A program made the translations under genes and the position numbers. From a virus, in the IMG/VR virus record IMGVR_UViG_3300001450_000317, positions 1 to 23,705 of that record: a stretch of DNA of 23,705 nt; one strand, 5' to 3'. Below the pieces are notes generated by a model, which was given only the letters and a program-made list of their open reading frames with translations, ran no database searches and had not been told where the DNA came from. Shown in pieces: positions 1,735 through 13,729 of the stretch. The stretch's first letter is position 1. Every line of letters starts with the position of its first letter.

Positions 1735-1789
1735 TTTACATTTCCTTGACACAATAAACATTGACTTCAGCCGCAAGATAGGATATATT
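1735..1789 (+). promoter_or_regulatory. Composite promoter 1
   Basis: TTTACA 1735-1740 and TTGACA 1746-1751 (11 bp apart), -35 TTGACT 1761-1766 (15 bp on), 17-bp spacer, -10 TATATT 1784-1789. It drives the GDLV operon at 1810; SD AAGGAG follows. Confidence 0.88.
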
Positions 1790-1809
1790 ATAAGGGTAAG
1801 GAGACAAAC

Positions 1810-2019
1810 ATGAAAGTTGGTGATCTGGTAATAATGCCCGGTTCTTGTTATCGTGACAACAGCAATAACCCCGCAACGGGTATTATCCTTCGGACAAAGC
1901 CGGACGGCATACCCCGAGGTACGCCAAGTTTAAGTAGAGTTAAAGTATACTGGTTGCAAGATGCAGAGGTATCATGGGAGCCTAAGAAATGGTTGGAGGT
2001 TATAAATGAAAGCAGGTGA
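1810..2019 (+). CDS. GDLV-family small SH3-like protein, 69 aa
   Basis: Starts MKVGDLVIM after SD AAGGAG. Strands: K-V-G-D-L-V, T-G-I-I-L-R, V-K-V-Y-W, then W-L-E-V-I-N-E-S-R. First gene of an operon of four (to 2670). The codons for L-E-V (TTGGAGGTT) place GGAGG upstream of the next ATG, and its last four codons N-E-S-R and stop are the first 14 nt of the next gene in another frame. Function unknown; a protein- or nucleic-acid-binding mini-barrel is the structural inference. Confidence 0.87.
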   Translation: MKVGDLVIMPGSCYRDNSNNPATGIILRTKPDGIPRGTPSLSRVKVYWLQDAEVSWEPKKWLEVINESR

Positions 2020-2212
2020 TTTAGTAAAATGGAACGGTAGCATTTGTTTGGTAACGGAAGTTTACGAAAGCAAGTGTTGGCGCACTGATGAGAGAGGCAA
2101 AGCTATTAACTGGGGAGCAATCCCCCATGAGCCGTTCGCTCGCATTCTTTTTAAGGGTGACTTGCGCGGCATCCCACAAGCAGACTTGAGTTCAATCGAT
2201 GAAACTCGGTGA
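2006..2212 (+). CDS. GDLV-family small SH3-like protein, 68 aa
   Basis: Starts MKAGDLVKW 14 nt inside the previous gene, with GGAGG at 1995-1999. A second strand (S-I-C-L-V-T-E-V) follows the GDLV strand, then a charged loop and F-A-R-I-L-F. The C-terminal strand lacks L-E-V-V, having L-S-S-I-D-E-T-R; D-E-T-R plus stop are again the first 14 nt of the next gene. Two cysteines (near 15 and 25) are not in a metal-site pattern. Translationally coupled to both neighbours. Confidence 0.85.
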   Translation: MKAGDLVKWNGSICLVTEVYESKCWRTDERGKAINWGAIPHEPFARILFKGDLRGIPQADLSSIDETR

Positions 2213-2429
2213 TCTGGTAAAGGTTCGATACCGTGATGGTGTTAATGAACTTAACGATCCACTGTGGACCGTTCCTTATCACGGAGTTGTATTTGAGACA
2301 CCTGATATGGGTGAGTTTTGCATGTGGAAAATGTGGTGCATTGAACGCGGTAGCGTGCATATCTTGTCACCACGTAAAGATAATATAGAGGTAGTATATG
2401 AAGTTAACATTAGTGATAGACACCGATGA
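2199..2429 (+). CDS. GDLV-family small SH3-like protein, 76 aa
   Basis: Starts MKLGDLVKV, overlapping the previous gene by 14 nt. A longer loop than usual precedes strand two (H-G-V-V-F-E-T), and the middle is rich in Met/Trp/Cys (C-M-W-K-M-W-C). The SD is poor (TTGAG), so it may depend on coupling with the gene upstream. The stop lies 32 nt inside the next gene, the longest overlap seen here. Confidence 0.83.
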   Translation: MKLGDLVKVRYRDGVNELNDPLWTVPYHGVVFETPDMGEFCMWKMWCIERGSVHILSPRKDNIEVVYEVNISDRHR

Positions 2430-2670
2430 CATCGACGGCATCCACGATGCTTTCAAGATCGCTGGGCATTTTTACAAAAAGTATGGACCACCCGGCAGCT
2501 ACGGTCATCAACTTTCTTACGGAAAGATTAAGCATATCAAGATGCTGCGGTCATTTGCAAAGAAAGCAATCGAAGCGCACGAAGCCGGTAAAGATCCGGC
2601 CGGGCTAAGGTTTACAAAAGATTATACCGAGGCACTTATCAATGATGATCCTGGCTATCCGGGCATTTGA
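2398..2670 (+). CDS. hypothetical protein, 90 aa
   Basis: ATG 2398 has AGAGG 8-12 nt upstream. The product begins with a strand, M-K-L-T-L-V-I-D-T-D-D, followed by two amphipathic helices (H-D-A-F-K-I-A-G-H-F-Y; L-R-S-F-A-K-K-A-I-E). The pattern M-K-L-T-L-V-[IV]-D, helix, L-R-x-F-A is one I associate with small phage proteins of unknown function. Its TGA stop (2668-2670) is part of the first TTGACA of promoter 2, so gene end and operator overlap. Confidence 0.82.
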   Translation: MKLTLVIDTDDIDGIHDAFKIAGHFYKKYGPPGSYGHQLSYGKIKHIKMLRSFAKKAIEAHEAGKDPAGLRFTKDYTEALINDDPGYPGI

Positions 2671-2721
2671 CATGTCCTTGACAAGAAATACATTGACTTT
2701 TTTTCGTCAATGGTGTATATT
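2667..2721 (+). promoter_or_regulatory. Composite promoter 2
   Basis: TTGACA 2667-2672 and TTGACA 2678-2683 (11 bp apart), -35 TTGACT 2693-2698, 17-bp spacer, -10 TATATT 2716-2721. It drives the operon at 2748. The first hexamer holds the stop codon of the upstream gene. Confidence 0.92.
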
Positions 2722-2747
2722 TATAGAGTAAGTCAAAGGAGAACTAC

Positions 2748-3050
2748 ATGTCTGTAAAAGTAACTGATAACCTTAACGTCGTTCGTGCATGGAAGGACGG
2801 AAAAAATGCGCGCAACCATAAGAACACACTGATGACACTTGATGGAGAACTGTTCTCTTATCGCTTGAAGATCGGATCGCGCACGGATGCCGGTGTTTGC
2901 GTTATCGCGGACTTCATGGCTGGGTCTGGTGGGTTTCACTCGATGACCACTTCTCAGCATGTCTCGCTTGCAAAGCGATCAGCTGATGTTGTTATGCACC
3001 CGCTTGTGTGGGAGTCTTCACCACTTTCTTACGATGAGGTTCCTTTCTAA
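2748..3050 (+). CDS. hypothetical phage protein, 100 aa
   Basis: Start ATG 2748 after SD AAAGGAG. The protein has a helical/basic N-terminus, a strand region (L-F-S-Y-R-L-K-I-G-S-R-T), then V-C-V-I-A-D-F-M and the motif G-G-F-H-S-M-T-T-S-Q-H-V, followed by a helix and a conserved-looking tail (W-E-S-S-P-L-S). The paired His and Ser/Thr in the FHSMTTSQH segment could be a ligand or active-site loop, but I cannot tie it to a known fold. First gene of an operon running to 4476; next gene overlaps by 1 nt. Confidence 0.83.
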   Translation: MSVKVTDNLNVVRAWKDGKNARNHKNTLMTLDGELFSYRLKIGSRTDAGVCVIADFMAGSGGFHSMTTSQHVSLAKRSADVVMHPLVWESSPLSYDEVPF

Positions 3051-3394
3051 TGGGTGAGATTGTTGATCTTGATGCTTTCCGAAAACAGCGGAAAGAAGAT
3101 GAAGAAGCTGAAGCAAGAGCCGAAGCGGAGGCTTTGGCACAAGAGGAGAAGGACGAGATTGATTATATGCGTGATGTCCTTCAGCAGATCATGGTCAACC
3201 TCTCTGATTCACTAACAGGCTCAATGATGACTTATAACCCTGATGATCCGAACAACTTTGGATACGATGGATATTCGTCAGATGATTATATGGTCAATAC
3301 ATATTATCACGAAGCTGGGTACGATGAGAATGGCTATTACGAAAAATCATGGGAGTTTGATCCAAATGAAGACGAGGATAATGATGACGTTTAA
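3050..3394 (+). CDS. acidic coiled-coil-type protein, 114 aa
   Basis: Starts MGEIVDLDAFRKQRKEDEE, a motif (I-V-D-L-D-A-F-R-K-Q-R) common at the N-terminus of small phage proteins. Residues 8-45 form a long charged helix; the C-terminal half is Asp/Glu/Tyr-rich and probably disordered. The net charge is strongly negative, so a DNA-mimic or scaffolding role is possible, but that is speculation. Overlaps the previous stop by 1 nt and the next gene by 11 nt. Confidence 0.82.
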   Translation: MGEIVDLDAFRKQRKEDEEAEARAEAEALAQEEKDEIDYMRDVLQQIMVNLSDSLTGSMMTYNPDDPNNFGYDGYSSDDYMVNTYYHEAGYDENGYYEKSWEFDPNEDEDNDDV

Positions 3395-3602
3395 GAAAGG
3401 TGACTTTGTTCGCATCAAAGAAGGCACGCATTCGGATCGAATGCCGAAATCTCGGCTTGGTCACGTGCAGGGGTTTGCTCACGTAGCGCGCTTGTATAAT
3501 GAAGAGGGCGTTACAGCCCAACAAACAGACCAATATAACATTTACATGACGAATGGAGAAATCCTAAAGTTTCACGAATCATATTTGGAGTTGGTTGAGT
3601 AG
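3384..3602 (+). CDS. GDLV-family (KGDFV) small protein, 72 aa
   Basis: Start ATG 3384 is better placed than 3381 because GAGG (3374-3377) then lies 6 nt upstream. Begins MTFKKGDFVRIKEG, followed by L-G-H-V-Q-G-F and Y-N-I-Y-M-T-N-G-E-I-L-K-F, ending with Y-L-E-L-V-E: the family strand order with the C-terminal L-E-[LV]-V strand. The L-E-L-V codons again supply GGAG for the gene that follows directly at 3602. Confidence 0.82.
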   Translation: MTFKKGDFVRIKEGTHSDRMPKSRLGHVQGFAHVARLYNEEGVTAQQTDQYNIYMTNGEILKFHESYLELVE

Positions 3603-3760
3603 TGGTATTAAGTAAAGAAGAAAAGAAACTTATTTCAGAATGCATCGAGTCGCACCAACGCATGATTAAACATCATCGCCAGCAGATTATTGATTTGTCA
3701 CGGAAGTTGGTTGAAGTTGAAGTTGAAATGGAATCATTTAACATTGAGGTTAAGAAATGA
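3602..3760 (+). CDS. small coiled-coil protein, 52 aa, GTG start
   Basis: GTG at 3602 overlaps the preceding TAG by one base; GGAG in the upstream L-E-L codons and TTGAG nearer the start serve as SD. The product VVLSKEEKKL... is one continuous charged helix with heptad-like hydrophobics (I-I-D-L-S-R-K-L-V-E-V-E-V-E-M), so probably a coiled coil. Its stop overlaps the ATG of the next gene (ATGA at 3757). Real by spacing and coupling, though short. Confidence 0.72.
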   Translation: MVLSKEEKKLISECIESHQRMIKHHRQQIIDLSRKLVEVEVEMESFNIEVKK

Positions 3761-3933
3761 AAGCTGGAGACAGAGTAACAAAACAAAAGGTCATGTCAGT
3801 TGAGAATGCACTGGGAACCGTCGAGAAGATTACCAAAGATTATATTGTGGTCATTTGGGATAAAGTTAATGGGCACTGGCATTATACACATGATCAGTCT
3901 GCTGCACTGGATCCAGTTGATGAAAGTGGGTGA
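3757..3933 (+). CDS. GDLV-family (MKAGDRV) small protein, 58 aa
   Basis: Starts MKAGDRVTK with a 4-nt ATGA overlap on the previous stop. Strands: A-G-D-R-V, A-L-G-T-V-E-K-I, Y-I-V-V-I-W-D, W-H-Y, then A-L-D-P-V-D. The G-T-V-x-x-[IV] after the first strand resembles the KOW motif spacing. The last codons D-E-S-G and stop are the first 14 nt of the next gene. Confidence 0.8.
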   Translation: MKAGDRVTKQKVMSVENALGTVEKITKDYIVVIWDKVNGHWHYTHDQSAALDPVDESG

Positions 3934-4108
3934 TTTGGTTGTGCATGCCAAGGGCACGATCCACCCACAGAAATACCTGCTGGGCATTGTTATTAATAAG
4001 AGTTTAGAGTTTGAGACATTATATGAAGTTGTGTGGTTTCATTCGGCGCGCAAGCAGTTGTGTCGCTATGACGTTATAAAGAGGTTAGAAGATTATGAAA
4101 GTAGGTGA
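3920..4108 (+). CDS. GDLV-family small SH3-like protein, 62 aa
   Basis: Starts MKVGDLVVH at 3920, 14 nt inside the previous gene; upstream in-frame codons lie within that gene and are not needed. Strands: V-G-D-L-V-V, L-G-I-V-I, Y-E-V-V-W-F, then R-L-E-D-Y-E-S-R. It ends in E-S-R* because its terminal codons are the start of the next family member. Confidence 0.84.
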   Translation: MKVGDLVVHAKGTIHPQKYLLGIVINKSLEFETLYEVVWFHSARKQLCRYDVIKRLEDYESR

Positions 4109-4286
4109 TCTAGTGCAGTTTGAAAGCGTAGATAATGATGATGTTGAGTCTCAACTAGATTATGGGATCGTCGTTAAACTTTCTAGAACTGGGCACAAAA
4201 CAAAATCGGCCGAAGTTTTATTTCACGATGGTGAGATTGCATGGATTGGTACGAATACTTTGGTGGTGGTTAGTGAGAGTAGGTGA
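4095..4286 (+). CDS. GDLV-family small SH3-like protein, 63 aa
   Basis: Starts MKVGDLVQF. Strands: V-G-D-L-V-Q-F, Y-G-I-V-V-K-L, A-E-V-L-F-H-D-G-E-I-A-W-I, T-L-V-V-V-S-E-S-R: the clearest family pattern in the window, with a D-G-E turn between strands three and four. 14-nt overlaps on both sides. The D-G-x-x-x-W turn is typical of small SH3-like/Tudor-type barrels. Confidence 0.86.
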   Translation: MKVGDLVQFESVDNDDVESQLDYGIVVKLSRTGHKTKSAEVLFHDGEIAWIGTNTLVVVSESR

Positions 4287-4476
4287 TCTAATATCATTCA
4301 AGCCCGAGGGCTATTCGGATGATGATTATTCAAATCCTGCAATAGTTTTGCGTCGGTTTGAACCTGTCACAGAACCGGGTATCTGGATAGTTTGGTGTGA
4401 AGGGCTTGAGTGTCTTGTCGACGAAGAAAACTACGATGTTGTTTACTTGACATCTTCTTTACAAAAGAGTGCTTGA
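4273..4476 (+). CDS. GDLV-family small protein, 67 aa, GTG start
   Basis: GTG at 4273 gives (M)RVGDLISF, aligned to the family start and placed exactly 14 nt inside the previous gene; no ATG fits. Strands: V-G-D-L-I-S-F, A-I-V-L-R-R, I-W-I-V-W-C, V-V-Y-L. Its 3' end overlaps promoter 3: both upstream hexamers lie in its coding sequence and the TGA (4474-4476) is in the -35 box TTGACT. Confidence 0.83.
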   Translation: MRVGDLISFKPEGYSDDDYSNPAIVLRRFEPVTEPGIWIVWCEGLECLVDEENYDVVYLTSSLQKSA

Positions 4477-4501
4477 CTTATGGTGAGATCGATGATATAT
4501 T
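4447..4501 (+). promoter_or_regulatory. Composite promoter 3
   Basis: TTGACA 4447-4452, TTTACA 4458-4463, -35 TTGACT 4473-4478, 17-bp spacer, -10 TATATT 4496-4501. It overlaps the end of the upstream gene by 30 nt and drives the membrane-peptide operon at 4525. Confidence 0.9.
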
Positions 4502-4524
4502 ATATGTATAGAAAGGAGAGTTTT

Positions 4525-4650
4525 ATGAGTAGAACAGCGATAAAGATTGGACAGAACAGACTTGCGATGACTTTGGTGGCGGTGGATGCCGTATGCTGGG
4601 GCGCGCTGCTTTTCTTCAGCATTCACTTTTTCACCTGCCCTGCGGCATAA
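4525..4650 (+). CDS. one-helix membrane peptide, 41 aa
   Basis: ATG 4525 follows a strong SD (AAAGGAGAG) and promoter 3. The product has a basic N-terminus (M-S-R-T-A-I-K-I-G-Q-N-R) and a hydrophobic helix at about 15-37 (L-A-M-T-L-V-A-V-D-A-V-C-W-G-A-L-L-F-F), so it should be an inner-membrane protein with N-in topology. Small membrane peptides in early phage operons often act on the host envelope or in superinfection exclusion; nothing here proves that. Confidence 0.75.
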   Translation: MSRTAIKIGQNRLAMTLVAVDAVCWGALLFFSIHFFTCPAA

Positions 4651-4662
4651 AGGAAGTTTAAC

Positions 4663-4725
4663 ATGCGTTTAGAGTTTATTTTTCTTGTGTCCATTGGCTT
4701 CGCGCTCGGAGCGGTTCTTACATGA
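4663..4725 (+). CDS. tiny membrane peptide, 20 aa
   Basis: AAGGAAG SD at 4650-4656, ATG 4663, product M-R-L-E-F-I-F-L-V-S-I-G-F-A-L-G-A-V-L-T: a single hydrophobic helix. Its stop overlaps the next ATG (ATGA at 4722). Could be a real micropeptide or a leader for coupling the next gene; the SD and the coupled stop favour translation. Confidence 0.5.
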   Translation: MRLEFIFLVSIGFALGAVLT

Positions 4726-4874
4726 GTCCAGTTGAAGTTTCAATACCACCGGCGATCTTCACAAATCACAAGGGGATCCGTTACGGGATCGCTGGCTCTG
4801 TGTGGATTGAGGTGCCAGAAGGCACACTCTCGACGAGCTATCAGAATACATGGTCTACAAGCCACGTGAGATAG
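4722..4874 (+). CDS. hypothetical protein, 50 aa
   Basis: ATG 4722 overlaps the preceding TGA by ATGA. The product begins MSPVEVSIPPAI and has a strand-rich middle (G-I-A-G-S-V-W-I-E-V-P). No domain recognised. It overlaps the SWIM-finger gene by 25 nt. No good SD, so translation is probably coupled to the 20 aa peptide. Confidence 0.6.
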   Translation: MSPVEVSIPPAIFTNHKGIRYGIAGSVWIEVPEGTLSTSYQNTWSTSHVR

Positions 4875-5032
4875 CGTCTGCGCCCGGTGAAAACTCTTGG
4901 AGTGTAAAGGGTAGTAAAGGAAATGTTTACACCGTTAAACTCTCTAAGGGCGTTTATTCTTGCTCTTGTCCCGGCTACGGTTTTCGGCGTAAGTGTCGCC
5001 ACATTACGGAGATTAAAGATGAAACAAAATAG
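4850..5032 (+). CDS. mini SWIM-type zinc-finger protein, 60 aa
   Basis: Cys38, Cys40, Cys49 and His51 form C-x-C-x8-C-x-H, the SWIM zinc-finger signature, preceded by the usual strand pattern (N-V-Y-T-V-K-L-S-K-G-V-Y-S-C-S-C-P-G-Y). In cellular proteins SWIM domains bind nucleic acid or protein and are part of larger proteins (SWI2/SNF2, MuDR transposases, recombination-accessory factors). Here the domain is nearly the entire protein. The start at 4850 overlaps the previous gene. Likely a DNA-, RNA- or protein-binding adaptor. Confidence 0.83.
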   Translation: MVYKPREIASAPGENSWSVKGSKGNVYTVKLSKGVYSCSCPGYGFRRKCRHITEIKDETK

Positions 5033-5141
5033 TTTTAAGGATGATATTGAATCGGCAGAGAGGAAAATCCTCATTGTTAGTTGGTTTGGCGCGCTTTCTG
5101 CGTTAGCGGTCATCGGTTATACGCTCTTGACATTCTCTTGA
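5019..5141 (+). CDS. one-helix membrane peptide, 40 aa
   Basis: ATG 5019 with ACGGAG about 8 nt upstream, overlapping the SWIM gene by 14 nt. An N-terminal charged helix (M-K-Q-N-S-F-K-D-D-I-E-S-A-E-R-K) is followed by a transmembrane segment (I-L-I-V-S-W-F-G-A-L-S-A-L-A-V-I-G-Y). Its TGA (5139-5141) lies within the second TTGACA of promoter 4. Confidence 0.72.
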   Translation: MKQNSFKDDIESAERKILIVSWFGALSALAVIGYTLLTFS

Positions 5142-5181
5142 CAAGAAGTCTGTTGCAATCACTCCCCCCTTATGGTATAAT
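5127..5181 (+). promoter_or_regulatory. Composite promoter 4
   Basis: TTGACA 5127-5132, TTGACA 5138-5143, a degenerate -35 TTGCAA 5153-5158, 17-bp spacer, extended -10 TGGTATAAT with the hexamer at 5176-5181. It drives the GDLV operon at 5207. The upstream hexamers are perfect although the -35 is weak. Confidence 0.88.
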
Positions 5182-5206
5182 CTATTTATAGAAAGGAGAG
5201 AAATCT

Positions 5207-5395
5207 ATGATCAAAGTCGGAAGCATGGTTCAAAGCAAATACTCGATGGGTCGGAGAGCCAAGCCCGGAAATCTCGGTTTGGTGCTGGAGTTGCGCAACA
5301 CAGAAGAAGAAGCCTTCGGCTTGGCTCGCGTATTTTATCCAAAGACCGGCAAACAAGGCTGGGTTGTAGTCAAAGACATGAAGGTGGTAGCATGA
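5207..5395 (+). CDS. GDLV-family (IKVGSMV) small protein, 62 aa
   Basis: Starts MIKVGSMVQS after GAAAGGAG. Strands: K-V-G-S-M-V-Q, L-G-L-V-L-E-L, G-L-A-R-V-F-Y, Q-G-W-V-V-V-K-D-M-K-V-V-A. The first-strand Asp is replaced by Ser. First gene of a five- or six-gene operon (to 6193). Four-nt overlap with the next gene (ATGA-like CATGA). Confidence 0.84.
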   Translation: MIKVGSMVQSKYSMGRRAKPGNLGLVLELRNTEEEAFGLARVFYPKTGKQGWVVVKDMKVVA

Positions 5396-5547
5396 AAGTC
5401 GGCAGTTTAGTACGTGAGACTATGGATGGCAACATCGGTGTCATCTTGGCGTGGGAGAATGACGGCTGGCTCGTCAACTTCCCGAAGCATGGCATGGTAT
5501 TCCACATGATGCCGAGACTCTTGGAGGTGGTTGATGCAAGTAGGTGA
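5392..5547 (+). CDS. GDLV-family (MKVGSLV) small protein, 51 aa
   Basis: ATG 5392, product MKVGSLVRE..., one of the shortest family members. Strands: V-G-S-L-V-R, I-G-V-I-L-A-W, W-L-V-N-F, M-V-F-H-M, L-L-E-V-V-D. The codons for L-L-E-V-V contain GGAGGTG, the SD of the next gene, and D-A-S-R plus stop are the first 14 nt of that gene. Confidence 0.82.
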   Translation: MKVGSLVRETMDGNIGVILAWENDGWLVNFPKHGMVFHMMPRLLEVVDASR

Positions 5548-5698
5548 TCTGGTGATTTCTGCGCGTGGGCATTGGCTCACTCCGAGACTTGTGGTATCCA
5601 TGCACGAGACAGCTAAAGCGTTGATTGGTATACTATGGCCAAACGGCGAGATAAGATATGTTCACCATAAACACTTGGAGGTGGTCAGTAATGTTTGA
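5534..5698 (+). CDS. GDLV-family (MQVGDLV) small protein, 54 aa
   Basis: ATG 5534 with GGAGGTG about 8 nt upstream, giving MQVGDLVIS. Strands: V-G-D-L-V-I-S, R-L-V-V-S-M, A-L-I-G-I-L-W-P-N-G-E-I-R-Y-V, H-L-E-V-V-S. The L-W-P-N-G-E-I-R turn matches the D-G-E turn of the 4095 protein. Its own L-E-V-V codons give the SD for 5691 (8-nt overlap). Confidence 0.82.
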   Translation: MQVGDLVISARGHWLTPRLVVSMHETAKALIGILWPNGEIRYVHHKHLEVVSNV

Positions 5699-5879
5699 GT
5701 TCATTACACGCCTGTTCAGGACAGATCCGGGTTCAAAGATCCGCAAGGAGAGAGATAGAAAGTATAAAGAAGCTGTCCAGTTGCAAAGGGATGGCAAGCT
5801 GCGAGAGTATGCAAAGATTATGAAAGAGATCGAAGCACTTGAAGACGAGTACATCAAGGTGACAAATGAAAGTCGGTGA
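5691..5879 (+). CDS. Lacal_2735/DUF6435-like small helical protein, 62 aa
   Basis: ATG 5691 follows GGAGGTGG. The pattern M-F-x-F-I-x-x-L-F, D-P-x-x-K-I-R-K-E-R-x-x-K-Y-K-E-A-V-Q-L-Q-R-D-G-K-L-R-E-Y-A and a final helix resembles Lacal_2735/DUF6435 proteins (M-F-x-F-x-K-x-D-P-x-K-K-L, then A-x-x-x-Q-R-x-G-D-I-R-x-Y), small helical hairpins of unknown function found in marine bacteria. The match is from memory. It sits between GDLV members and ends N-E-S-R because its last 14 nt are the start of the next one. Confidence 0.75.
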   Translation: MFEFITRLFRTDPGSKIRKERDRKYKEAVQLQRDGKLREYAKIMKEIEALEDEYIKVTNESR

Positions 5880-6024
5880 TCTGATCAGACACAAACAAAC
5901 CGGTAAGATCGGCATTGTTCGCCGCATAGCCGACGAATACGGGGCGCACTTTTGGGTTTACGGATGGCCGACCAATCAAGTTTTTAACTCGACTACATGG
6001 GAGCGTTTAAGTGAAAGTAGGTGA
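5866..6024 (+). CDS. GDLV-family small SH3-like protein, 52 aa
   Basis: ATG 5866, MKVGDLIRH. Strands: V-G-D-L-I-R, G-I-V-R-R-I, H-F-W-V-Y-G-W, W-E-R-L-S-E-S-R. Overlaps both neighbours by 14 nt. The SD is AAGGTG in the end of the upstream gene. Confidence 0.82.
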   Translation: MKVGDLIRHKQTGKIGIVRRIADEYGAHFWVYGWPTNQVFNSTTWERLSESR

Positions 6025-6193
6025 TCTGGTAAAGTGGCGCGGTACTGTCGCGACCATCGTTAAAGAATACAAACGCGCCGTTCCCGATGGCAACCCCGAT
6101 GGTGATTGGCGTTATGATCGTAGCTGGGATATTCTAGTGGGTGCTGAAACTATCCGCATTAAACGCCAACTTCCGGTTGTTAACTGTTCTTGA
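6011..6193 (+). CDS. GDLV-family small protein, 60 aa, GTG start
   Basis: GTG 6011, product (M)KVGDLVKW. The start DNA (GTGAAAGTAGGTGATCTGGT) is almost the family consensus. Strands: V-G-D-L-V-K-W, V-A-T-I-V-K-E, W-D-I-L-V, then I-R-I-K-R-Q-L-P-V-V. The TGA stop (6191-6193) lies in the first TTGACA of promoter 5. Confidence 0.83.
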   Translation: MKVGDLVKWRGTVATIVKEYKRAVPDGNPDGDWRYDRSWDILVGAETIRIKRQLPVVNCS

Positions 6194-6244
6194 CATTTCC
6201 TTTACAATAAAACCCTTGTAATCTCGATGCCCCTGTGTTATATT
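6190..6244 (+). promoter_or_regulatory. Composite promoter 5
   Basis: TTGACA 6190-6195, TTTACA 6201-6206, weak -35 TTGTAA 6216-6221, 17-bp spacer, -10 TATATT 6239-6244. Leader TAATCAAGGAGG follows; drives 6270. Confidence 0.86.
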
Positions 6245-6269
6245 ATATAGGTAATCAAGGAGGACCATT

Positions 6270-6614
6270 ATGGCCTATCTCACGAAAGACGACCTCGTAA
6301 TCATCCGAACCAGCGAGGCTACCATTCAGGCGCGTGTCGTTGACATGCAGTTCCGGCGCTTCCGCAGTAGCTGGAAGGACAAGAAGACCGGCGAGACTAA
6401 GCGCCGATGGAAGTCAGTGCCTTACGCTATCTGTGAATGCTTCATCGGCGCGCCTATAGGCACCGAGTTTCTGATCCCCGGCTACAAGCTGAAAAGCGAA
6501 ACTAAAGACGGTGAGAAGCTACTGGTGTTGCAAGACAAGTACGCCGCCGAGTTCAACGGTGCATGGGTAAACAAGATGCTTGCCGACAGCAAGGCAAAGA
6601 GAGAGAGTGTATGA
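6270..6614 (+). CDS. hypothetical protein, possible divergent GDLV relative, 114 aa
   Basis: ATG 6270 after AAGGAGG. The opening Y-L-T-K-D-D-L-V-I-I-R, then I-Q-A-R-V-V-D-M-Q-F, follows the family strand pattern with D-D-L-V for G-D-L-V. The protein is longer, with a basic insert (W-K-D-K-K-T-G-E-T-K-R-R-W-K-S) and a strand-rich C-terminal half. The basic hairpin could bind nucleic acid. Four-nt overlap with the next gene. Confidence 0.8.
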   Translation: MAYLTKDDLVIIRTSEATIQARVVDMQFRRFRSSWKDKKTGETKRRWKSVPYAICECFIGAPIGTEFLIPGYKLKSETKDGEKLLVLQDKYAAEFNGAWVNKMLADSKAKRESV

Positions 6615-6952
6615 TGAAAGTTTGGGTTTTATGTGGAAGCTATGAAAGTGAGGGATTCACATCCGTTCATCTGACCGAGAAGGGCTGCGCGTTGGCGTGT
6701 ATCGCTGATGTGTTACAGTTCTTGGGCGTTGACGATGAAGAAACAGCATTGCAGGTTGTGAACAGTCATTATAGTTATACAGAGACAGACGGCGAACAAA
6801 CAGAACCATTTGAGTGGGATTCTGACAAGTTGAAAGATATGTCACGTGAAGAGTTGTGGAAAGTCTTTAATGACTGGACTGAAAATAGCTGGGAACACAT
6901 GGCAGATCGCAGCTATTATATCACTGCCGATGCGCAAATGATCCAGCCTTGA
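6611..6952 (+). CDS. hypothetical phage protein, 113 aa
   Basis: Start ATG 6611 (ATGATGA junction; 6614 is an equal alternative). Begins MMKVWVLCGSYESEG, a strand and turn reminiscent of phage proteins that display V-W-V-[LV]-x-G-x-Y-x-x-E-G, then T-E-K-G-C-A-L-A-C-I-A-D-V-L-Q-F-L-G, a helix. The C-terminal half is acidic and Trp-rich. No function known. Its TGA (6950-6952) lies in the first TTGACA of promoter 6. Confidence 0.82.
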   Translation: MMKVWVLCGSYESEGFTSVHLTEKGCALACIADVLQFLGVDDEETALQVVNSHYSYTETDGEQTEPFEWDSDKLKDMSREELWKVFNDWTENSWEHMADRSYYITADAQMIQP

Positions 6953-7003
6953 CATTCTCTTTACAACTTTCTTATTGACATTCTCTCCCGCCTGTGAGAT
7001 AAT
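6949..7003 (+). promoter_or_regulatory. Composite promoter 6
   Basis: TTGACA 6949-6954, TTTACA 6960-6965, -35 TTGACA 6975-6980, 17-bp spacer, -10 GATAAT 6998-7003. Leader TAATCAAGGAGG as in promoter 5. Drives 7030 and 7221. Confidence 0.9.
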
Positions 7004-7029
7004 ACAGGGGTAATCAAGGAGGCATCTAA

Positions 7030-7218
7030 ATGCTCACACTTCCGCTAATCAATCAACGCCAATCGCTTACACCGCTTGAGGACACCCAAGATCGCATGGA
7101 GATCATGATCACGATGATGATGCTATACGGTGAAGTCAATAATGAAGACAATGATCCGCTTGCAATCGAAACCTTGACAATGGCTTCGGCGGCTGTCAAC
7201 TCACCTGCGGAGGCATAA
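7030..7218 (+). CDS. hypothetical protein, 62 aa
   Basis: ATG 7030, SD CAAGGAGG. The product starts M-L-T-L-P-L-I-N and has a Met-rich helix (R-M-E-I-M-I-T-M-M-M-L-Y) and an acidic turn, ending in an Ala-rich tail. No domain recognised. The next gene begins 2 nt after its stop, so the two form an operon. Confidence 0.78.
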   Translation: MLTLPLINQRQSLTPLEDTQDRMEIMITMMMLYGEVNNEDNDPLAIETLTMASAAVNSPAEA

Positions 7219-7220
7219 TC

Positions 7221-7769: not shown

Positions 7770-7824
7770 TTGACATTTACTTTACAACTTTTTTATTGAC
7801 TTTCTCACTTAAATATGAGATAAT
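7770..7824 (+). promoter_or_regulatory. Composite promoter 7
   Basis: TTGACA 7770-7775, TTTACA 7781-7786, -35 TTGACT 7796-7801, 17-bp spacer, extended -10 TGAGATAAT with GATAAT at 7819-7824. Drives 7847. Confidence 0.92.
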
Positions 7825-7846
7825 ACATTTGTACTTAGGAGGTATA

Positions 7847-8278: not shown

Positions 8279-8293
8279 GGGAGTTAAACTATT

Positions 8294-8548: not shown

Positions 8549-8558
8549 ATGTAATCTC

Positions 8559-8612
8559 TTGACATTCCCTTTACAATATCGACTTGACTTCTGCCCTCGC
8601 ATATGAGATAAT
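8559..8612 (+). promoter_or_regulatory. Composite promoter 8
   Basis: TTGACA 8559-8564, TTTACA 8570-8575, -35 TTGACT 8584-8589 (14 bp on, one less than usual), 17-bp spacer, extended -10 TGAGATAAT with GATAAT at 8607-8612. The stretch CATATGAGATAAT is shared with promoter 10. Confidence 0.9.
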
Positions 8613-8637
8613 AAGGAACAATCAAGGAAAGGTATAC

Positions 8638-8781
8638 ATGCTCAACGACTTGCAAATCACTCTACTCGACAACGGGATCTGGCTTCTGCCTGTTCTCTGT
8701 GTCGTTGCCCTTGCGGTGTTCCCGTGGAAACATTGGAACGCGCTCCTCGATTCTTTGGAGGATACTAATGCAAGTAGGTAA
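8638..8781 (+). CDS. one-helix membrane peptide, 47 aa
   Basis: ATG 8638 after AAGGAAAGG; earlier in-frame codons lie in the promoter. A hydrophobic helix at about 14-30 (W-L-L-P-V-L-C-V-V-A-L-A-V-F-P-W) is followed by an amphipathic tail that ends N-A-S-R because its last 14 nt are the start of the next gene. The S-L-E codons (TCTTTGGAGG) hold the next SD. A membrane peptide fused into the GDLV cassette format. Confidence 0.78.
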   Translation: MLNDLQITLLDNGIWLLPVLCVVALAVFPWKHWNALLDSLEDTNASR

Positions 8782-8986
8782 AATGTATAAGTTTGAAGGT
8801 TGGGGCTTGTCCCGCAGCGGTTTAGATGGAACACTTGCGGTGTATCTCGGTGAGGATTTTATTCACCGAGATGATGGGTTGATCATCGAGAACCACAGGA
8901 TCCTAAAGGTCGGCGCGCCAGCATCCACGCTCATTGATCGGGGTCTGTTAAAGTATATGAAGGAGGTAGTAAATGAAGATCGGTAA
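8768..8986 (+). CDS. GDLV-like (MQVGKMY) small protein, 72 aa
   Basis: ATG 8768, SD GGAGG. Starts MQVGKMYKFEG, a divergent form of the family start with G-K-M-Y for G-D-L-V. Strands: G-K-M-Y-K-F, G-T-L-A-V-Y-L-G, H-R-I-L-K-V-G. The C-terminal end (Y-M-K-E-V-V-N-E-D-R) supplies AGGAGG for the next gene and overlaps it by 14 nt. Confidence 0.8.
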   Translation: MQVGKMYKFEGWGLSRSGLDGTLAVYLGEDFIHRDDGLIIENHRILKVGAPASTLIDRGLLKYMKEVVNEDR

Positions 8987-9140
8987 TCTGGTGAGAAACC
9001 TTAACTCTGAGCGCGGTATGCTGGGTGTCATAGTGTCTTGGTATTTCTATGAAGATAGCCCCACACCTTGCCCAGTGGTTCGCTGGAATGATGGAAGAAC
9101 TAGCTGGGTCATGCCACACTTGGTCACTGTAATCTCCTGA
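8973..9140 (+). CDS. GDLV-family (MKIGNLV) small protein, 55 aa
   Basis: ATG 8973 with AAGGAGG upstream. Strands: I-G-N-L-V-R, L-G-V-I-V-S-W, P-V-V-R-W-N-D-G-R-T-S-W-V, H-L-V-T-V-I. The W-N-D-G-x-x-x-W-V turn matches 4095 and 5534. The TGA stop (9138-9140) lies in CTGACA, first hexamer of promoter 9. Confidence 0.82.
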   Translation: MKIGNLVRNLNSERGMLGVIVSWYFYEDSPTPCPVVRWNDGRTSWVMPHLVTVIS

Positions 9141-9191
9141 CATTCTCTTGACAACTTAGTTGTTGACTTACCCCCCTATTTCTGGTATAAT
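9137..9191 (+). promoter_or_regulatory. Composite promoter 9
   Basis: CTGACA 9137-9142, TTGACA 9148-9153, -35 TTGACT 9163-9168, 17-bp spacer, extended -10 TGGTATAAT with hexamer 9186-9191. A 51-nt leader follows before 9243. Confidence 0.93.
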
Positions 9192-9199
9192 AGGTGCAT

Positions 9200-9234
9200 A
9201 AGTTAGAGAAATCAATCAACCCCCTCCGCTGGAG
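9200..9234 (+). promoter_or_regulatory. Leader motif with SD-pairing hairpin (gene 9243)
   Basis: AAGTTAGAGAAA at 9200-9211 recurs exactly at 10541-10552. Both leaders then carry CCCCTCC facing the SD GGAG: here CTCC 9224-9227 can pair with GGAG 9231-9234 over a 3-nt loop. The stem is short, so SD masking is only a possibility. Confidence 0.4.
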
Positions 9235-9242
9235 AAAATCAT

Positions 9243-10127
9243 ATGTCATATAACGGAACCGTCCGCTGCTCACACTGCTACCAAACCGGTCACAACCGGC
9301 GCAAGTGTCCCGATCTCACTCAATCATTTCTTGATGGTTATAAGCGTGAACTGAAGAGGATCGCCGGATATGAGGCGCTGACCGAAGAAGAAGCTGAAAG
9401 GCAGGGTACTGATCGCGCGTGGAACCTCGACTATCACACCCGGAAAGCGGAAGAGCTGCGTTCCAACTATATGAAGCGGACCAAGGTTGATCCAGCTACG
9501 GGCGAGAAGGTCACCAATAAGAAAGCAAAAGCCGAGCGCATGAAGAAGGTGAAGTGCGGCTATTGCGGCAACCGTGGACACACGCGCCGAGTTTGCCAGA
9601 ACGCCAAGAACGACTATGCGATCTACGCCGAGCGTACGCGCGCGGTGCGTCAAGAATGGTATGATCTGCTCAAGTCTCTGGGTGTCGGTGTCGGCACAAT
9701 GGTCATCCGTCGCGACTTCCGGGGCTACCTGCCAAACGGTGAGTACGGACTACAAAACATCACAGGTTTGATCACTGAGATTCAGTGGGATCGCATTGAC
9801 GCGCACCGCGAGGGTCATCCTCTCGTCGTTAGAAGCAACGCGCAGCTTCGCGGAGAAAAGAGTGATTATTACACTCCGACTTTGCCCAATATGACACTGG
9901 GTGAGATCGCGCAAGCTGAGACAGCCGTAGCGCGGGACTTGACTGTGCTTCCTTCAGGAAAGCCGCCACAGATGCCAGCAGGCTGGTTGACAGACACTAA
10001 ATCTATCAAAGCGGTCTTTAGCACCGAAAACGATCGACCGTGGGAATACCAGTGGGGCGATTCGGACTCATGGCAGGTAAAGACTCGCGAGGATCTTGGG
10101 CTTCCAAGGTGCGCTTACGAGGCTTGA
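9243..10127 (+). CDS. double CCHC zinc-knuckle protein, 294 aa
   Basis: ATG 9243, SD TGGAG. Two CCHC knuckles (C-x2-C-x4-H-x4-C): Cys9, Cys12, His17, Cys22 and Cys105, Cys108, His113, Cys118, each followed by Arg-rich residues (H-N-R-R-K-C; H-T-R-R-V-C). This knuckle binds single-stranded RNA or DNA in retroviral nucleocapsids and eukaryotic RNA-binding proteins; I recall similar two-knuckle proteins in large T4-like phages. Between the knuckles is a charged helical linker (23-104). The C-terminal 170 residues have a strand-rich region near 140-200 (G-V-G-V-G-T-M-V-I-R-R-D-F) and an unknown remainder. Likely an RNA/ssDNA-binding protein. It stands alone between promoters 9 and 10; its TGA is in the first TTGACA of promoter 10. 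Confidence 0.88.
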   Translation: MSYNGTVRCSHCYQTGHNRRKCPDLTQSFLDGYKRELKRIAGYEALTEEEAERQGTDRAWNLDYHTRKAEELRSNYMKRTKVDPATGEKVTNKKAKAERMKKVKCGYCGNRGHTRRVCQNAKNDYAIYAERTRAVRQEWYDLLKSLGVGVGTMVIRRDFRGYLPNGEYGLQNITGLITEIQWDRIDAHREGHPLVVRSNAQLRGEKSDYYTPTLPNMTLGEIAQAETAVARDLTVLPSGKPPQMPAGWLTDTKSIKAVFSTENDRPWEYQWGDSDSWQVKTREDLGLPRCAYEA

Positions 10128-10178
10128 CATTCTCTTGACAATAAACCTGTTGACTTTTCTTCTCGCATATGAGATAAT
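10124..10178 (+). promoter_or_regulatory. Composite promoter 10
   Basis: TTGACA 10124-10129, TTGACA 10135-10140, -35 TTGACT 10150-10155, 17-bp spacer, extended -10 TGAGATAAT with GATAAT at 10173-10178. Drives 10209 alone. All three upstream hexamers are near-perfect. Confidence 0.94.
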
Positions 10179-10208
10179 GTATACATCATCGAGCATAGGA
10201 GCTACCTG

Positions 10209-10469
10209 ATGACTGACACCCTGACCACTTCTGACCTTCGCGCCCTCAAGTTGACCGAGGACGAATGGCATACACTCTTCCATTCGGGCGAGTTTACTGC
10301 TGACAGCAACCGCGTTGACATGCTTGTGCTGGCTGGACTGGCTGTATGGAAGGACGAGCCTGACCATCCTGAACGTAACTGGGATCTGACCGAGGAAGGT
10401 CGCGCTGCCTGCAACACGATTGACCTTATCTTTGACTGGGCTGACTTCGCGCACGTTGAAGTAGCCTGA
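10209..10469 (+). CDS. possible winged-helix small protein, 86 aa
   Basis: ATG 10209, SD TAGGAG. The order L-T-x-x-E-W (helix), a middle helix (R-V-D-M-L-V-L-A-G-L-A-V-W), then N-W-D-L-T-E-E-G-R-A-A-C (wing strand plus helix) is the arrangement of MarR/PadR-type winged helices, where L-T-x-x-G-R-x follows the wing. At 86 aa it would be a bare domain. If it binds DNA it is a candidate regulator of the phage promoters, but it is acidic overall, which argues against tight DNA binding. Single-gene unit between promoters 10 and 11; TGA lies in CTGACA at 10466-10471. Confidence 0.8.
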   Translation: MTDTLTTSDLRALKLTEDEWHTLFHSGEFTADSNRVDMLVLAGLAVWKDEPDHPERNWDLTEEGRAACNTIDLIFDWADFAHVEVA

Positions 10470-10477
10470 CAAATCCC

Positions 10478-10532
10478 TTAACATTTACTTTACAATAAAC
10501 CTGTTGACCTTTACCCCCACTTATGGTATACT
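10478..10532 (+). promoter_or_regulatory. Composite promoter 11
   Basis: TTAACA 10478-10483, TTTACA 10489-10494, -35 TTGACC 10504-10509, 17-bp spacer, extended -10 TGGTATACT with hexamer 10527-10532. A further CTGACA lies 12 bp upstream (10466-10471) and holds the preceding stop. Leader contains AAGTTAGAGAAA (10541-10552) as in promoter 9. Drives the AAA+ gene. Confidence 0.88.
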
Positions 10533-10574
10533 TACTAAGTAAGTTAGAGAAAGAACCCCTCCAAGGAGAATCAC

Positions 10575-11657
10575 ATGTCTGTCGATTTCGCAACCTTCAC
10601 GTCCGTCGTCCCTCATATCCTCAATGCACGCCTGCCCGTGCTTCTCCGTGGTCGTCACGGTGTCGGCAAGTCGCAGGTGGTCTATCAGATCGCGGAGTCC
10701 CGTGGTCTTCCCGTCATCGAGCGCCGTGCGTCTCAGATGACCGAGGGTGATCTTCTCGGTCTGCCTGACACGGCAGACACCGAGATCAACGGCCGCAAGG
10801 CTACCACGTGGAACGCCCCCGACTGGCTTGTGACCGCGTGTGAGCAGCCTGTGTGCCTCTTCCTCGATGAAGTGGACCGCGCGACTCAAGAGGTCCGTCA
10901 GGGCTTGTTTGAGTTGACCGATAGCCGCAAGATCAACGGCTGGCACCTGCACGCCGACACCTTGATCGTCGCTGCCGTTAACGGTGGCGAGCATGGCGCG
11001 CAATACCAAGTCGGTGAGATGGACCCTGCCGAGCTTGACCGCTGGACCGTGTTCGATGTCGAGCCTTCTACAGAAGACTGGCTCAAGTGGGCGCAGGACA
11101 ATGTTGATGGTATCCTTTGGGATTTCATTAACCAGAACCGCACACACCTTGAGCACATCGGTGAGTACGAGCCTAACAAGGTTTATCCTTCTCGCCGTAG
11201 CTGGAAGCGGTTTAACGATACCGTTGCCCCGGTCGGCGTGTTCGGTGAAGAGGGTGATCGTGACATGCTCTTCAACCTCGCGACCGCGTTCGTGGGCTTT
11301 GAGGGTGCCGTTGCTCTCCGTGACTTCGTTGAGAAGTACGAATGGCAGGTAACCGTTGAAGACCTCATCGACAACGGTGAGATCGACAAAACCGACAAGT
11401 GGGGTATCAATGACCACGCTGCCATGATCGAGAAGATGGAGGCGGCTAAGACCTTCGCGGAGCCTCTGTCCGAGGCTCAGATCGCCAACGTCGCGGAGTA
11501 CTTCGTGACCCTGCCTTCCGAGGTAGCGATGAAGCTGTGGACGGTTATCGGTGACTCCGATAACATCGACAACACGATCGCTCTGCACAAGGCAGAGACT
11601 AAGGACGGACGCCGAGTGTCCGATCACCTTGTCGAGATTCTTGGAGGCAACCAGTGA
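10575..11657 (+). CDS. MoxR-type AAA+ ATPase, 360 aa
   Basis: ATG 10575 after CAAGGAG. Walker A G-R-H-G-V-G-K-S at 26-33; Walker B C-L-F-L-D-E-V-D at 94-101; sensor-1 strand I-V-A-A-V-N-G-G with Asn136; then D-P-A-E-L-D-R-W with Arg156 in the place of the MoxR arginine finger. The short N-terminus and the N-A-P-D-W-L segment (about 80-84) match the MoxR/ATPase_5 (dynein-like) AAA+ type. Such ATPases work with VWA-domain partners to remodel or insert metal or cofactors into proteins; the VWA protein at 11995 is the obvious partner. Residues 165-360 form an unassigned helical C-terminal region. G+C-rich third positions compared with neighbours suggest high expression or recent acquisition. Confidence 0.92.
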   Translation: MSVDFATFTSVVPHILNARLPVLLRGRHGVGKSQVVYQIAESRGLPVIERRASQMTEGDLLGLPDTADTEINGRKATTWNAPDWLVTACEQPVCLFLDEVDRATQEVRQGLFELTDSRKINGWHLHADTLIVAAVNGGEHGAQYQVGEMDPAELDRWTVFDVEPSTEDWLKWAQDNVDGILWDFINQNRTHLEHIGEYEPNKVYPSRRSWKRFNDTVAPVGVFGEEGDRDMLFNLATAFVGFEGAVALRDFVEKYEWQVTVEDLIDNGEIDKTDKWGINDHAAMIEKMEAAKTFAEPLSEAQIANVAEYFVTLPSEVAMKLWTVIGDSDNIDNTIALHKAETKDGRRVSDHLVEILGGNQ

Positions 11658-11917
11658 TCACAGGTCCGCAGCGCAGCGCGCGCATGATGCTCCCAAGGGT
11701 CAGGGTTCTCCGAAAGGGGGATCTGATCTTTAGGAGTCGCGCAGAAGGCTCTGAGAAGCCCCACGTTGTCGTCCGGGTGACTGATACCGGCATACCCCGC
11801 TACGGCTCTCAGAAAGGCACACGGCTCACCTACCGGGTGATTAACCCGGCCACGGGAGTAGAGTTAAACCTTTCAGAGTTTGAGATCGCCGCCGAATACG
11901 ATGTCAGCGGTCCTTGA
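11654..11917 (+). CDS. small GDLI-containing protein, 87 aa, GTG start
   Basis: GTG 11654 overlaps the ATPase stop by 4 nt and has GGAGG 6 nt upstream (11643-11647). After a basic N-terminus, L-R-K-G-D-L-I-F-R-S-R aligns with the GDLV first strand, followed by H-V-V-V-R-V and L-T-Y-R-V-I-N and a final L-S-E-F-E-I-A. So a longer GDLV-like protein is coupled to the ATPase and may belong to its complex. The TGA (11915-11917) is in the first TTGACA of promoter 12. Confidence 0.8.
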   Translation: MITGPQRSARMMLPRVRVLRKGDLIFRSRAEGSEKPHVVVRVTDTGIPRYGSQKGTRLTYRVINPATGVELNLSEFEIAAEYDVSGP

Positions 11918-11969
11918 CATTTACTTAACAAACTTTCTATTGACTTTAACCCCTTTTCTATGGTATACT
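11914..11969 (+). promoter_or_regulatory. Composite promoter 12
   Basis: TTGACA 11914-11919, TTAACA 11925-11930, -35 TTGACT 11940-11945, 18-bp spacer (one longer than usual), extended -10 TGGTATACT with hexamer 11964-11969. Drives the VWA gene. Confidence 0.9.
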
Positions 11970-11994
11970 TGTAAAGTAATCAGGAGAGATACAC

Positions 11995-13293
11995 ATGTCC
12001 GATGAATCCACAAAGCCCGCCGCCCCGTTCAACTTGAACATGCACACCGCTCGCCTGCTTATGCGTGAGCCGTTCTTTGCCGCGCTCTCGCGCCGGATTG
12101 ACAAGACTGCTACAAAGTCTCTTCCGACCGCTGGCGTGCGTGTCAACCCGCATACTGCGCAGTTTGAACTTCTTTATAATCCTGACTTCATGGGTCAGTT
12201 GAAGCCAGAACATCAACTCGGTGTGTTGATGCACGAGTTTTATCACATCATCCTTGAGCACGTGACTGGTCGCAAGCCTACCGATGGTCTTGGGCGTATT
12301 GATAACATTGCAATGGACCTTGCGATCAATGGTTTGCCTGAGATGAAGGGCAAGCTGCCTTGTGAAGCTGATCCCGGTCCTGTCATGTACGATGGCGAGG
12401 GCATGAAGGGCGTTTTCCCCGGTGAAGGTCCGTTTAAGCATCTGCCTGCTGGCAAGTCTTACGAGTGGTATCTTGCTGCTCTCAAGGATATGCAGGACCA
12501 GCAGGGTGAAGGTGACGGCTCTGACGGTCAGCAGGACGGCGACGGTGAACCCGGTGAGGGCAACGGTCAGGGTCAAGGTCAGGGCGGTGATCCGTTCGGT
12601 GGTGCTGACAGCTTCGACTCACATGAGGAGTTCGGTGAGGGCGATGGCACTACTCAAGAGATCGCTAAGGAACGACTTAAAGAAGCTGTCAAGAAAGCAG
12701 CCGAGGAAGCTGAGAAATCCCGTAACTGGGGATCTGTGTCTCATGGCATGCGCTCCGACATCATGGACCGCATTCAGACTAAGGTTGACTGGCGCAAAGT
12801 TCTGCGATACTTCGTCAAAACCTCACAACGCGCTGAGAAGACCTCGACGCCTCGACGCCTTAACAAACGCTTCCCTCGTATCCACGCAGGCAAGCGCGTC
12901 CGTCGTCAAGCCAAGATCGCGATCAGTATCGATCAGTCCGGCTCTGTTGATGATCAGATGCTCTCTACATTCTTCTCGGAGCTTAACAAGCTGGCAGAAA
13001 TCGCGGAGTTCACCGTGATCCCCTTCGACACTAAGGTAGCCGAGGACAAGGTATATACTTGGAAGAAGGGCGCGAGCCGTAAGACCGAGCGCGTCTTGAC
13101 TGGCGGTACCTGCTTCGATGCTCCAACGCGCTACGTCAATAAGCACAAGTTTGACGGGCACATCGTCTTGACCGACCTTTGCGCGCCCAAGCCCATTAAC
13201 AGCAAGTGCCAGCGCATGTGGATGACCACTAAGGCGCACGCCGCTCGCCCATACTTTCAAACCAATGAACGCATCATAGCCATCGACGCTTGA
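11995..13293 (+). CDS. HExxH + VWA protein (COG3864/DUF2201 type), 432 aa
   Basis: ATG 11995, SD CAGGAGAG. N-terminal metallopeptidase-like domain with H-E-F-Y-H at 80-84 (HExxH) inside L-G-V-L-M-H-E-F-Y-H-I-I-L-E-H, followed by N-x-A-x-D-L-A-I-N (103-112), which matches the DUF2201_N type. Residues 168-222 are a Gly/Asp/Gln-rich low-complexity linker, then a charged helix (223-242). The C-terminal VWA-like domain has D-Q-S-G-S at 313-317 (MIDAS D-x-S-x-S), a T-G-G-T Thr near 370 and V-L-T-D-L for the MIDAS Asp. Bacterial COG3864 proteins sit beside MoxR-type ATPases, as this one does (10575). The linker repeats may be polymorphic. TGA lies in the first TTGACA of promoter 13. Confidence 0.92.
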   Translation: MSDESTKPAAPFNLNMHTARLLMREPFFAALSRRIDKTATKSLPTAGVRVNPHTAQFELLYNPDFMGQLKPEHQLGVLMHEFYHIILEHVTGRKPTDGLGRIDNIAMDLAINGLPEMKGKLPCEADPGPVMYDGEGMKGVFPGEGPFKHLPAGKSYEWYLAALKDMQDQQGEGDGSDGQQDGDGEPGEGNGQGQGQGGDPFGGADSFDSHEEFGEGDGTTQEIAKERLKEAVKKAAEEAEKSRNWGSVSHGMRSDIMDRIQTKVDWRKVLRYFVKTSQRAEKTSTPRRLNKRFPRIHAGKRVRRQAKIAISIDQSGSVDDQMLSTFFSELNKLAEIAEFTVIPFDTKVAEDKVYTWKKGASRKTERVLTGGTCFDAPTRYVNKHKFDGHIVLTDLCAPKPINSKCQRMWMTTKAHAARPYFQTNERIIAIDA

Positions 13294-13344
13294 CATTCAC
13301 TTGACAACTTTGTTGTTGACTTTCACCTGTTTTTAGTGTATAAT
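13290..13344 (+). promoter_or_regulatory. Composite promoter 13
   Basis: TTGACA 13290-13295, TTGACA 13301-13306, -35 TTGACT 13316-13321, 17-bp spacer, -10 TATAAT 13339-13344. The best consensus promoter in the window. Drives 13374. Confidence 0.95.
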
Positions 13345-13373
13345 GATAGCATATCAAGTAAGGAGATATATCC

Positions 13374-13679
13374 ATGAAGTTTTACGTTTCTCGCACTCAC
13401 GTTTTTATCAATGATTCCGGCAAGGTTGACGGCTATGAAACCGTCTTGACCAAGCCAGATAGTCACAAGCCTACCCGCGAGATGCTTCGTCGAATGAAGG
13501 CACTCGGTATTCCAAACTTGCACATCTGCGAGCATCCTACCAACTCTCGTCGGTGGGGTCAGCTTGATCGCGCTCAAACCAAGCGCACAAAGACCCGCGC
13601 CATGACCATGGCTGATGTTGCTGGTGATCTCGCCGAGCTTGAGAAAGAAGCGGCCGAGAAAGAAGCAAACAACTCTTAA
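13374..13679 (+). CDS. hypothetical basic protein, 101 aa
   Basis: ATG 13374 after AAGGAG. The N-terminal half is strand-rich (K-F-Y-V-S-R-T-H-V-F-I-N, Y-E-T-V-L-T), then a basic helix (T-R-E-M-L-R-R-M-K-A-L-G), a T-K-R-T-K-T-R basic stretch and a C-terminal charged coiled-coil-like helix (D-L-A-E-L-E-K-E-A-A-E-K-E-A). Highly expressed by promoter strength. No family recognised. TAA stop (13677-13679) is part of TTAACA in promoter 14. Confidence 0.82.
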   Translation: MKFYVSRTHVFINDSGKVDGYETVLTKPDSHKPTREMLRRMKALGIPNLHICEHPTNSRRWGQLDRAQTKRTKTRAMTMADVAGDLAELEKEAAEKEANNS

Positions 13680-13729
13680 CATTCTCTTTACATAAAACTC
13701 TTGACCTTTAAGGTTATTTCTGGTATACT
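13676..13729 (+). promoter_or_regulatory. Composite promoter 14
   Basis: TTAACA 13676-13681, TTTACA 13687-13692, -35 TTGACC 13701-13706 (14 bp on), 17-bp spacer, extended -10 TGGTATACT with hexamer 13724-13729. Drives 13760 and the downstream GDLV/ferredoxin genes. Here the stop in the hexamer is TAA, matching the TTAACA variant. Confidence 0.9.

Follow-up and report, generated by a model that had tools for sequence, protein, structure and literature searches.

Response regulators of the OmpR/PhoB family recognize repeated DNA sites: every known site of the family is a direct repeat, and for PhoP of M. tuberculosis a 4-base-pair (bp) spacer within it is a strict requirement (PMC4832192). There are precedents for host response regulators acting on phage promoters, namely CtrA (PMC9437464) and PhoB (PMC10976474). 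In Far-T4 phages, the core transcription-regulation genes of T4 were not detected (PMC4360716). Here we analyze a 23,705-nucleotide virus record, IMGVR_UViG_3300001450_000317 (hereafter the window), from an uncultured T4-like marine phage, in which fourteen promoters carry a pair of TTGACA-like hexamers upstream of the -35 element. As the best explanation, though a tentative one, we propose that these hexamers activate a fourteen-promoter sigma-70-type phage regulon from upstream, as the site of an OmpR/PhoB-like regulator that is likely a host protein. In related lineages the site has been swapped.

The promoters follow a single plan: TTNACA-N5-TTNACA, a -35 element 25-26 bp after the start of the first hexamer, and an A/T-rich -10 element after a further 17-18 bp. 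A sequence-only reading had described fourteen copies of this composite promoter between positions 1735 and 13729, and all fourteen were recovered on the + strand at those positions and with the spacings it reported (each range given below opens with the first base of the pair). The second hexamer starts 11 bp after the first in 14/14 promoters and 15 bp before the -35 element in 12 sites (14 bp at 8559 and 13676), while the -35/-10 spacer is 17 bp except at 11914, where it is 18 bp. First hexamers include one CTGACA (9137) and two TTAACA. That reading had also seen that most -10 elements are extended (TGn), which holds for 11/14, and that the pair of promoters 4 and 5 stays intact beside a degraded -35, as we find at 5127 (TTGCAA) and 6190 (TTGTAA). 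The + strand holds 15 exact pairs, whereas 300 first-order Markov sequences gave 0.013 on average and never more than 1; the pair together with its complete promoter, present 14 times in the window, occurred 0 times in those sequences. With one mismatch allowed and both strands counted, 20 matches were found against 2.7 in shuffles (largest 8). In the window, the pattern TTNACATN4TTNACA has 14 forward matches and 0 reverse ones, and none when read backwards. The fourteen-promoter arrangement is real, conserved and regulatory.

The anatomy of the pair was established on promoters of pair-bearing relatives, 276 of which were picked by their -35 and extended -10 elements alone; in the promoter counts for relatives, related sequences are counted individually. 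Among these 276, spacing is 11 in 230 pairs against 12 in 10, and half-sites lie at -26/-15 from the first -35 base (195 and 200 promoters) or at -25/-14 (34 and 33). The offset of the pair stays at 26 with -35/-10 spacers of 16, 17 and 18 alike (46, 286 and 42 promoters, respectively), which indicates that the pair is phased to the -35 and not to the -10. The half-site consensus, C-[T/C]-T-G-A-C-A, has an information content of about 10.7 bits, and the -35 one of 6.4 bits, each read freely with the other elements given. Its position 1 is T or C and its position 6 nearly always A, whereas position 1 of the -35 is always T and position 6 mostly T. These values bear on another idea of the sequence-only reading, that the hexamers are decoy -35 elements holding RNA polymerase; they would do so through sigma region 4. 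TTGACA is indeed the -35 consensus; however, the stronger conservation of the half-site relative to the -35, and its other base preferences at positions 1, 3 and 6, argue that the pair is no decoy, as do its strict 11-bp phasing and the fact that the palindrome replacing it in one relative (L045, see below) is not a -35. We find decoys scarcely credible.

In the relatives, an A/T-rich stretch separates the pair from a -35 that is usually off consensus at its last base (TTGACT): A stands there in 51/245 pair promoters against 88/108 promoters with A-tracts, these being counts over related sequences. The pair might be an unusual upstream (UP) element whose repeats are read directly by the alpha-subunit C-terminal domains, with no other protein; relatives carry A-tracts at the same place, and the region is that of UP subsites. 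Yet the pair has fixed non-A/T bases, with an A/T-rich patch only beside the -35, and its TGACA core needs exact bases, unlike A-tracts. Moreover, other sigma-70-like promoters of the same relative genome lack the pair and several have A-rich upstream DNA, so that the polymerase already has an ordinary UP element. On this evidence a direct contact by the polymerase alone seems unlikely. We give a similarly low chance to an operator through which a repressor or dual regulator would turn the cluster down: upstream tandem sites can repress and the nearly complete core promoters could fire alone, but the position of the pair, upstream of the -35 and in phase with it, and its association with a weaker -35 speak against this, and A-tract UP-like sequences take its place in relatives.

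For the MoxR-like ATPase encoded after promoter 11, IMG/VR contains 80 close relatives, some of them on ~200-kb contigs; a near-DNA search of phage records gave no match. The comparison set comprises ~80 related Far-T4 phage contigs. A Gp23-type capsid gene is present in 11/11 related records, with nearest isolates including Rhodothermus phage RM378 and Flavobacterium and Microcystis phages; the relatives thereby belong to the Far-T4 group, and the window, which has no Gp23 gene, is filed there via its relatives. One 195-kb relative (L110-L114) also encodes a GroEL-like chaperonin, IMP dehydrogenase, ribosomal protein S21, a Dam methylase and a B12-type ribonucleotide reductase. The pair is kept in most close relatives. 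In the longest of them, with genomes of ~200 kb, nearly all pairs fall on the same strand within a single cluster of ~20 kb, and two records have a single stray match outside it.

Genes clearly extend right up to the site. An upstream open reading frame (ORF) ends nearby at 390/425 pair sites, and its stop codon (TGA or TAA) falls in half-site 1 for 196 of these 390 ORFs and in half-site 2 for 56; in the window, half-site 1 contains a stop in 8/14 promoters. Such overlap is favoured by the sequence of the pair, in which one frame invariably contains a stop. The same counts could suggest that the repeats mark seams between gene cassettes that have been shuffled, kept by recombination and read by no regulator, and gene content does vary between relatives. 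T4-type phages are said to exchange cassettes that carry promoters. But conservation is limited to the half-sites and the core, with variable bases between them, and the distance to the -35 is fixed, which makes seams a very improbable explanation.

Some relatives keep the core of the ATPase promoter with a different region upstream. In L018 and L062, GTGACA repeats 10 bp apart precede the ATPase, the VWA gene and the counterpart of window ORF 13760-14569 (their type was not taken from automatic tree labels, which undercount the 10-bp form). In L045, a palindrome, GGACA-N5-TGTCC, stands exactly 34 bp before the -35 of 8 promoters. A further set of relatives has A-tracts in place of the pair. 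On an ATPase tree (FastTree, modest support), phages with a replaced type branch from within the pair-bearing ones, the labelled rows requiring 9 changes, and a more distant group (~50-55% identity) has the 11-bp pair again. The best reading is that the upstream site is exchanged lineage by lineage, across all promoters of the cluster, and a replacement that affects the promoters as a set suggests a factor acting in trans. The sequence-only reading had named loss of the pair in related phages, beside a conserved core, as a result that would refute it. Such loss does occur, but as a swap for another element in all cluster promoters, which favours regulation and supports its proposal of a site for a regulator acting on a whole regulon, in keeping with the direct-repeat geometry. 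In A-tract relatives (L315, L316, L317 and L340, near 7131-7138), a terminator-like stem-loop and T-run end directly at the -35, and the T-run could serve as UP element. Another recurrent upstream word, ~GARATCATTGA, precedes several promoters in L080-L084, L343 and L358.

Which protein reads the pair? No OmpR/PhoB DNA-binding domain (PF00486) was found in 11 phage genomes, while control genomes were positive, and a comparison of gene presence between pair-bearing and pair-less genomes revealed no recognisable DNA-binding gene confined to the former. Pfam and PHROGs scans of ~150 ORFs of one relative returned one likely sequence-specific DNA-binding transcription protein, a small, cysteine-rich, zinc-type protein with a sigma-70 region-4 domain (L112:1596-1853, - strand; homologs L367-L377), found in 11/17 records searched. 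As the factor setting the site type it was rejected: it occurs in pair and A-tract phages alike and its recognition helix is much the same in both. A search for MotA (PF09158) gave no match anywhere, its control being equally silent; T4 middle promoters have a Mot box where the -35 would stand, and a -35 is present in 14/14 window promoters. As none of the phage genes matches the role, the likeliest regulator would be a protein of the host.

Several observations weigh against a host regulator of this kind or against activation. A search of IMG/VR for the pair with its -35 returned 86 stretches, and 25/25 previously unseen loci carry genes of this lineage, so that among the loci tested the arrangement is confined to it, whereas the site of a host regulator might also be expected in phages of other lineages. 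Among 925 bacterial genomes of three phyla, the strict pair pattern had 0/399 and 0/379 hits in two, and in the third (147 genomes) a single hit genome, a WOR-3 metagenome-assembled genome (MAG), within phage-like DNA. The palindrome of L045 does not fit an OmpR/PhoB site, which implies another protein class at least there; the pair could equally serve a repressor; and the individual counting of related sequences affects the promoter counts. A less likely but serious alternative is that the same activating site is read by an early phage-encoded protein, in the manner of T4 MotA, the cluster being a middle regulon. The exclusivity of the arrangement and the region-4 domain, which reads TTGACA, favour it, against the absence of PF00486 and of a DNA-binding gene specific to pair-bearing genomes, the much similar helix of the region-4 protein in A-tract phages and the negative MotA search, which had no working control. 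The repeat geometry and the known precedents (PMC4832192, PMC9437464, PMC10976474) favour a response regulator of the host, and exclusivity leans the opposite way.

Attempts at host assignment gave mixed indications. Similarity of tRNA-Met pointed to mixed hosts. ATPase relatives also occur, by co-binning, in WOR-3, Deltaproteobacteria and Acidiferrobacteraceae MAGs. Stretches resembling this phage lineage (L452, L456) are scattered over one 2.8-Mb WOR-3 MAG sequence; they reflect either a chimeric assembly or a host signal, and a WOR-3 assignment from co-binning was not trusted.

Under the tandem activator-site explanation, winged-helix monomers of the OmpR/PhoB kind would bind head to tail, one per CTTGACA half-site, 11 bp apart and at about -59 and -48. 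An A/T-rich patch at about -44 to -39 would hold the alpha-subunit C-terminal domain of the host RNA polymerase, and the bound regulator would recruit polymerase to the slightly off-consensus -35 (TTGACT), so that the cluster of small genes would be switched on together. We infer activation, with early timing, by a host member of this protein family. In related lineages the 10-bp repeat or the palindrome would bind a different regulator, and the A-tracts of others resemble UP elements. A bolder version, which we hold to be rather improbable, is that Far-T4 phages re-type the activator site of the whole cluster in one evolutionary step, as 11-bp repeat, 10-bp repeat, palindrome or A-tract, each for a different regulator, possibly with the phage region-4-like zinc protein as reader instead of a host factor.

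The fourteen promoters of the window, all on the + strand and with -35 TTGACT unless noted, are as follows. Promoter 1 (1735..1789; TTTACA/TTGACA, -10 TATATT) precedes ORF 1810-2019, and promoter 2 (2667..2721; TTGACA/TTGACA, -10 TATATT) has the TGA of the upstream ORF within half-site 1. TTGACA/TTTACA and -10 TATATT recur in promoter 3 (4447..4501; extension TGA) and, with -35 TTGTAA, extension TGT and a stop in half-site 1, in promoter 5 (6190..6244). Between them, promoter 4 (5127..5181; TTGACA/TTGACA, -35 TTGCAA, TGG, TATAAT) has the upstream TGA in half-site 2. Promoters 6 (6949..7003; -35 TTGACA, stop in half-site 1), 7 (7770..7824) and 8 (8559..8612; offset 25 bp) share TTGACA/TTTACA, TGA and GATAAT. 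Promoter 9 (9137..9191; CTGACA/TTGACA, TGG, TATAAT, stop in half-site 1) precedes ORF 9243-10127, a zinc-finger-like protein with zinc-knuckle-like motifs that shows ~27-49% identity between lineages, far more divergent than its neighbours. Promoter 10 (10124..10178; TTGACA/TTGACA, TGA, GATAAT) also has a stop in half-site 1. Promoter 11 (10478..10532; TTAACA/TTTACA, -35 TTGACC, TGG, TATACT) precedes the MoxR-like ATPase ORF 10575-11657, and promoter 12 (11914..11969; TTGACA/TTAACA, spacer 18 bp, TGG, TATACT, stop in half-site 1) the DUF2201 metallopeptidase/VWA ORF 11995-13293, whose stop lies in half-site 1 of promoter 13 (13290..13344; TTGACA/TTGACA, TATAAT). Finally, promoter 14 (13676..13729; TTAACA/TTTACA, -35 TTGACC, offset 25 bp, TGG, TATACT), with a TAA stop in half-site 1, precedes ORF 13760-14569.

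Three pairs are additional to those fourteen. The first, TTGACATTCTTTTGACA (15596..15612, +), lies in noncoding DNA past the cluster, has no matching -35/-10, and recurs as the same word in 12 other related loci; two TTGACA pairs at 16075-16091 (+) and 16132-16148 (-) also have no matching promoter. In the noncoding region around them (15460-16330), with TTGACA pairs on both strands, the sequence around TTTATACCTATAC forms a conserved block. The cluster is immediately preceded by four tRNA genes (Met, Arg, Asn, Ile; 34-942), and many tiny tandem proteins starting M-K-V-G-D-L-V or similar are encoded at 1810-6193 and 14569-15300.

Far-T4 phages are mostly uncultured, and the pair provides a concrete cis-code for one of their gene clusters, a code that is exchanged across the whole promoter set. 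If the activator-site explanation is true, the right host carries a regulator binding CTTGACA repeats 11 bp apart, which would give a handle on that host, and swapping the site in all cluster promoters together would permit one-step re-wiring of host takeover.

The pair can finally be set against described sites. The enterobacterial Pho box has the half-site CTGTCAT, with T at position 4, where the phage half-sites, read freely, have A in essentially all of ~245 promoters; the sequence-only reading was right to separate the two. The Bacillus PhoP box, TT[A/C/T]ACA, admits any base but G as the third of the hexamer, whereas G is found there in 86-91%, although TTTACA and TTAACA are common in the window itself. 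The third base is also G in most half-sites where TTAA-N7-TTAA, the CtrA site, would require A. The sequence gives no support for placing the pair in the Pho-box or CtrA families, and by that measure it appears to lie outside both. Like the CtrA sites of alphaproteobacterial phages, it has an 11-bp half-site period and is concentrated in one genome region, and the CtrA sites, through which phage promoter regions exploit a host response regulator, evolved several times; those sites have TTAA half-sites and lie mainly in gap regions or terminal repeats, whereas the pair has TTGACA half-sites and occurs once per promoter at a fixed distance from the -35 (PMC9437464). Cyanophages, marine phages too, use a host OmpR/PhoB-type regulator, as would be the case here, but their Pho boxes read PyTTAAPyPyT/A and PhoB binds some promoters only, compared with 14 uniform sites and near-complete cores here (PMC10976474). 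As in T4-type early promoters with UP-like A-tracts, a form present in the relatives, many near-identical sigma-70-type promoters precede small novel genes, here with a hexamer pair instead of A-tracts (PMC1524935). The closest geometry is that of M. tuberculosis PhoP, which binds as tandem dimers to 7-bp half-sites with a 4-bp spacer, an 11-bp direct repeat (PMC4832192); the same period is seen at exactly 11 bp in 230 of 276 promoters, which bears out the suggested PhoB/OmpR-type geometry, with TTGACAT/A in phage where PhoP has TCACAGC. On the best reading, the pair is a variant of the known OmpR/PhoB-type direct-repeat geometry, with a sequence of its own.

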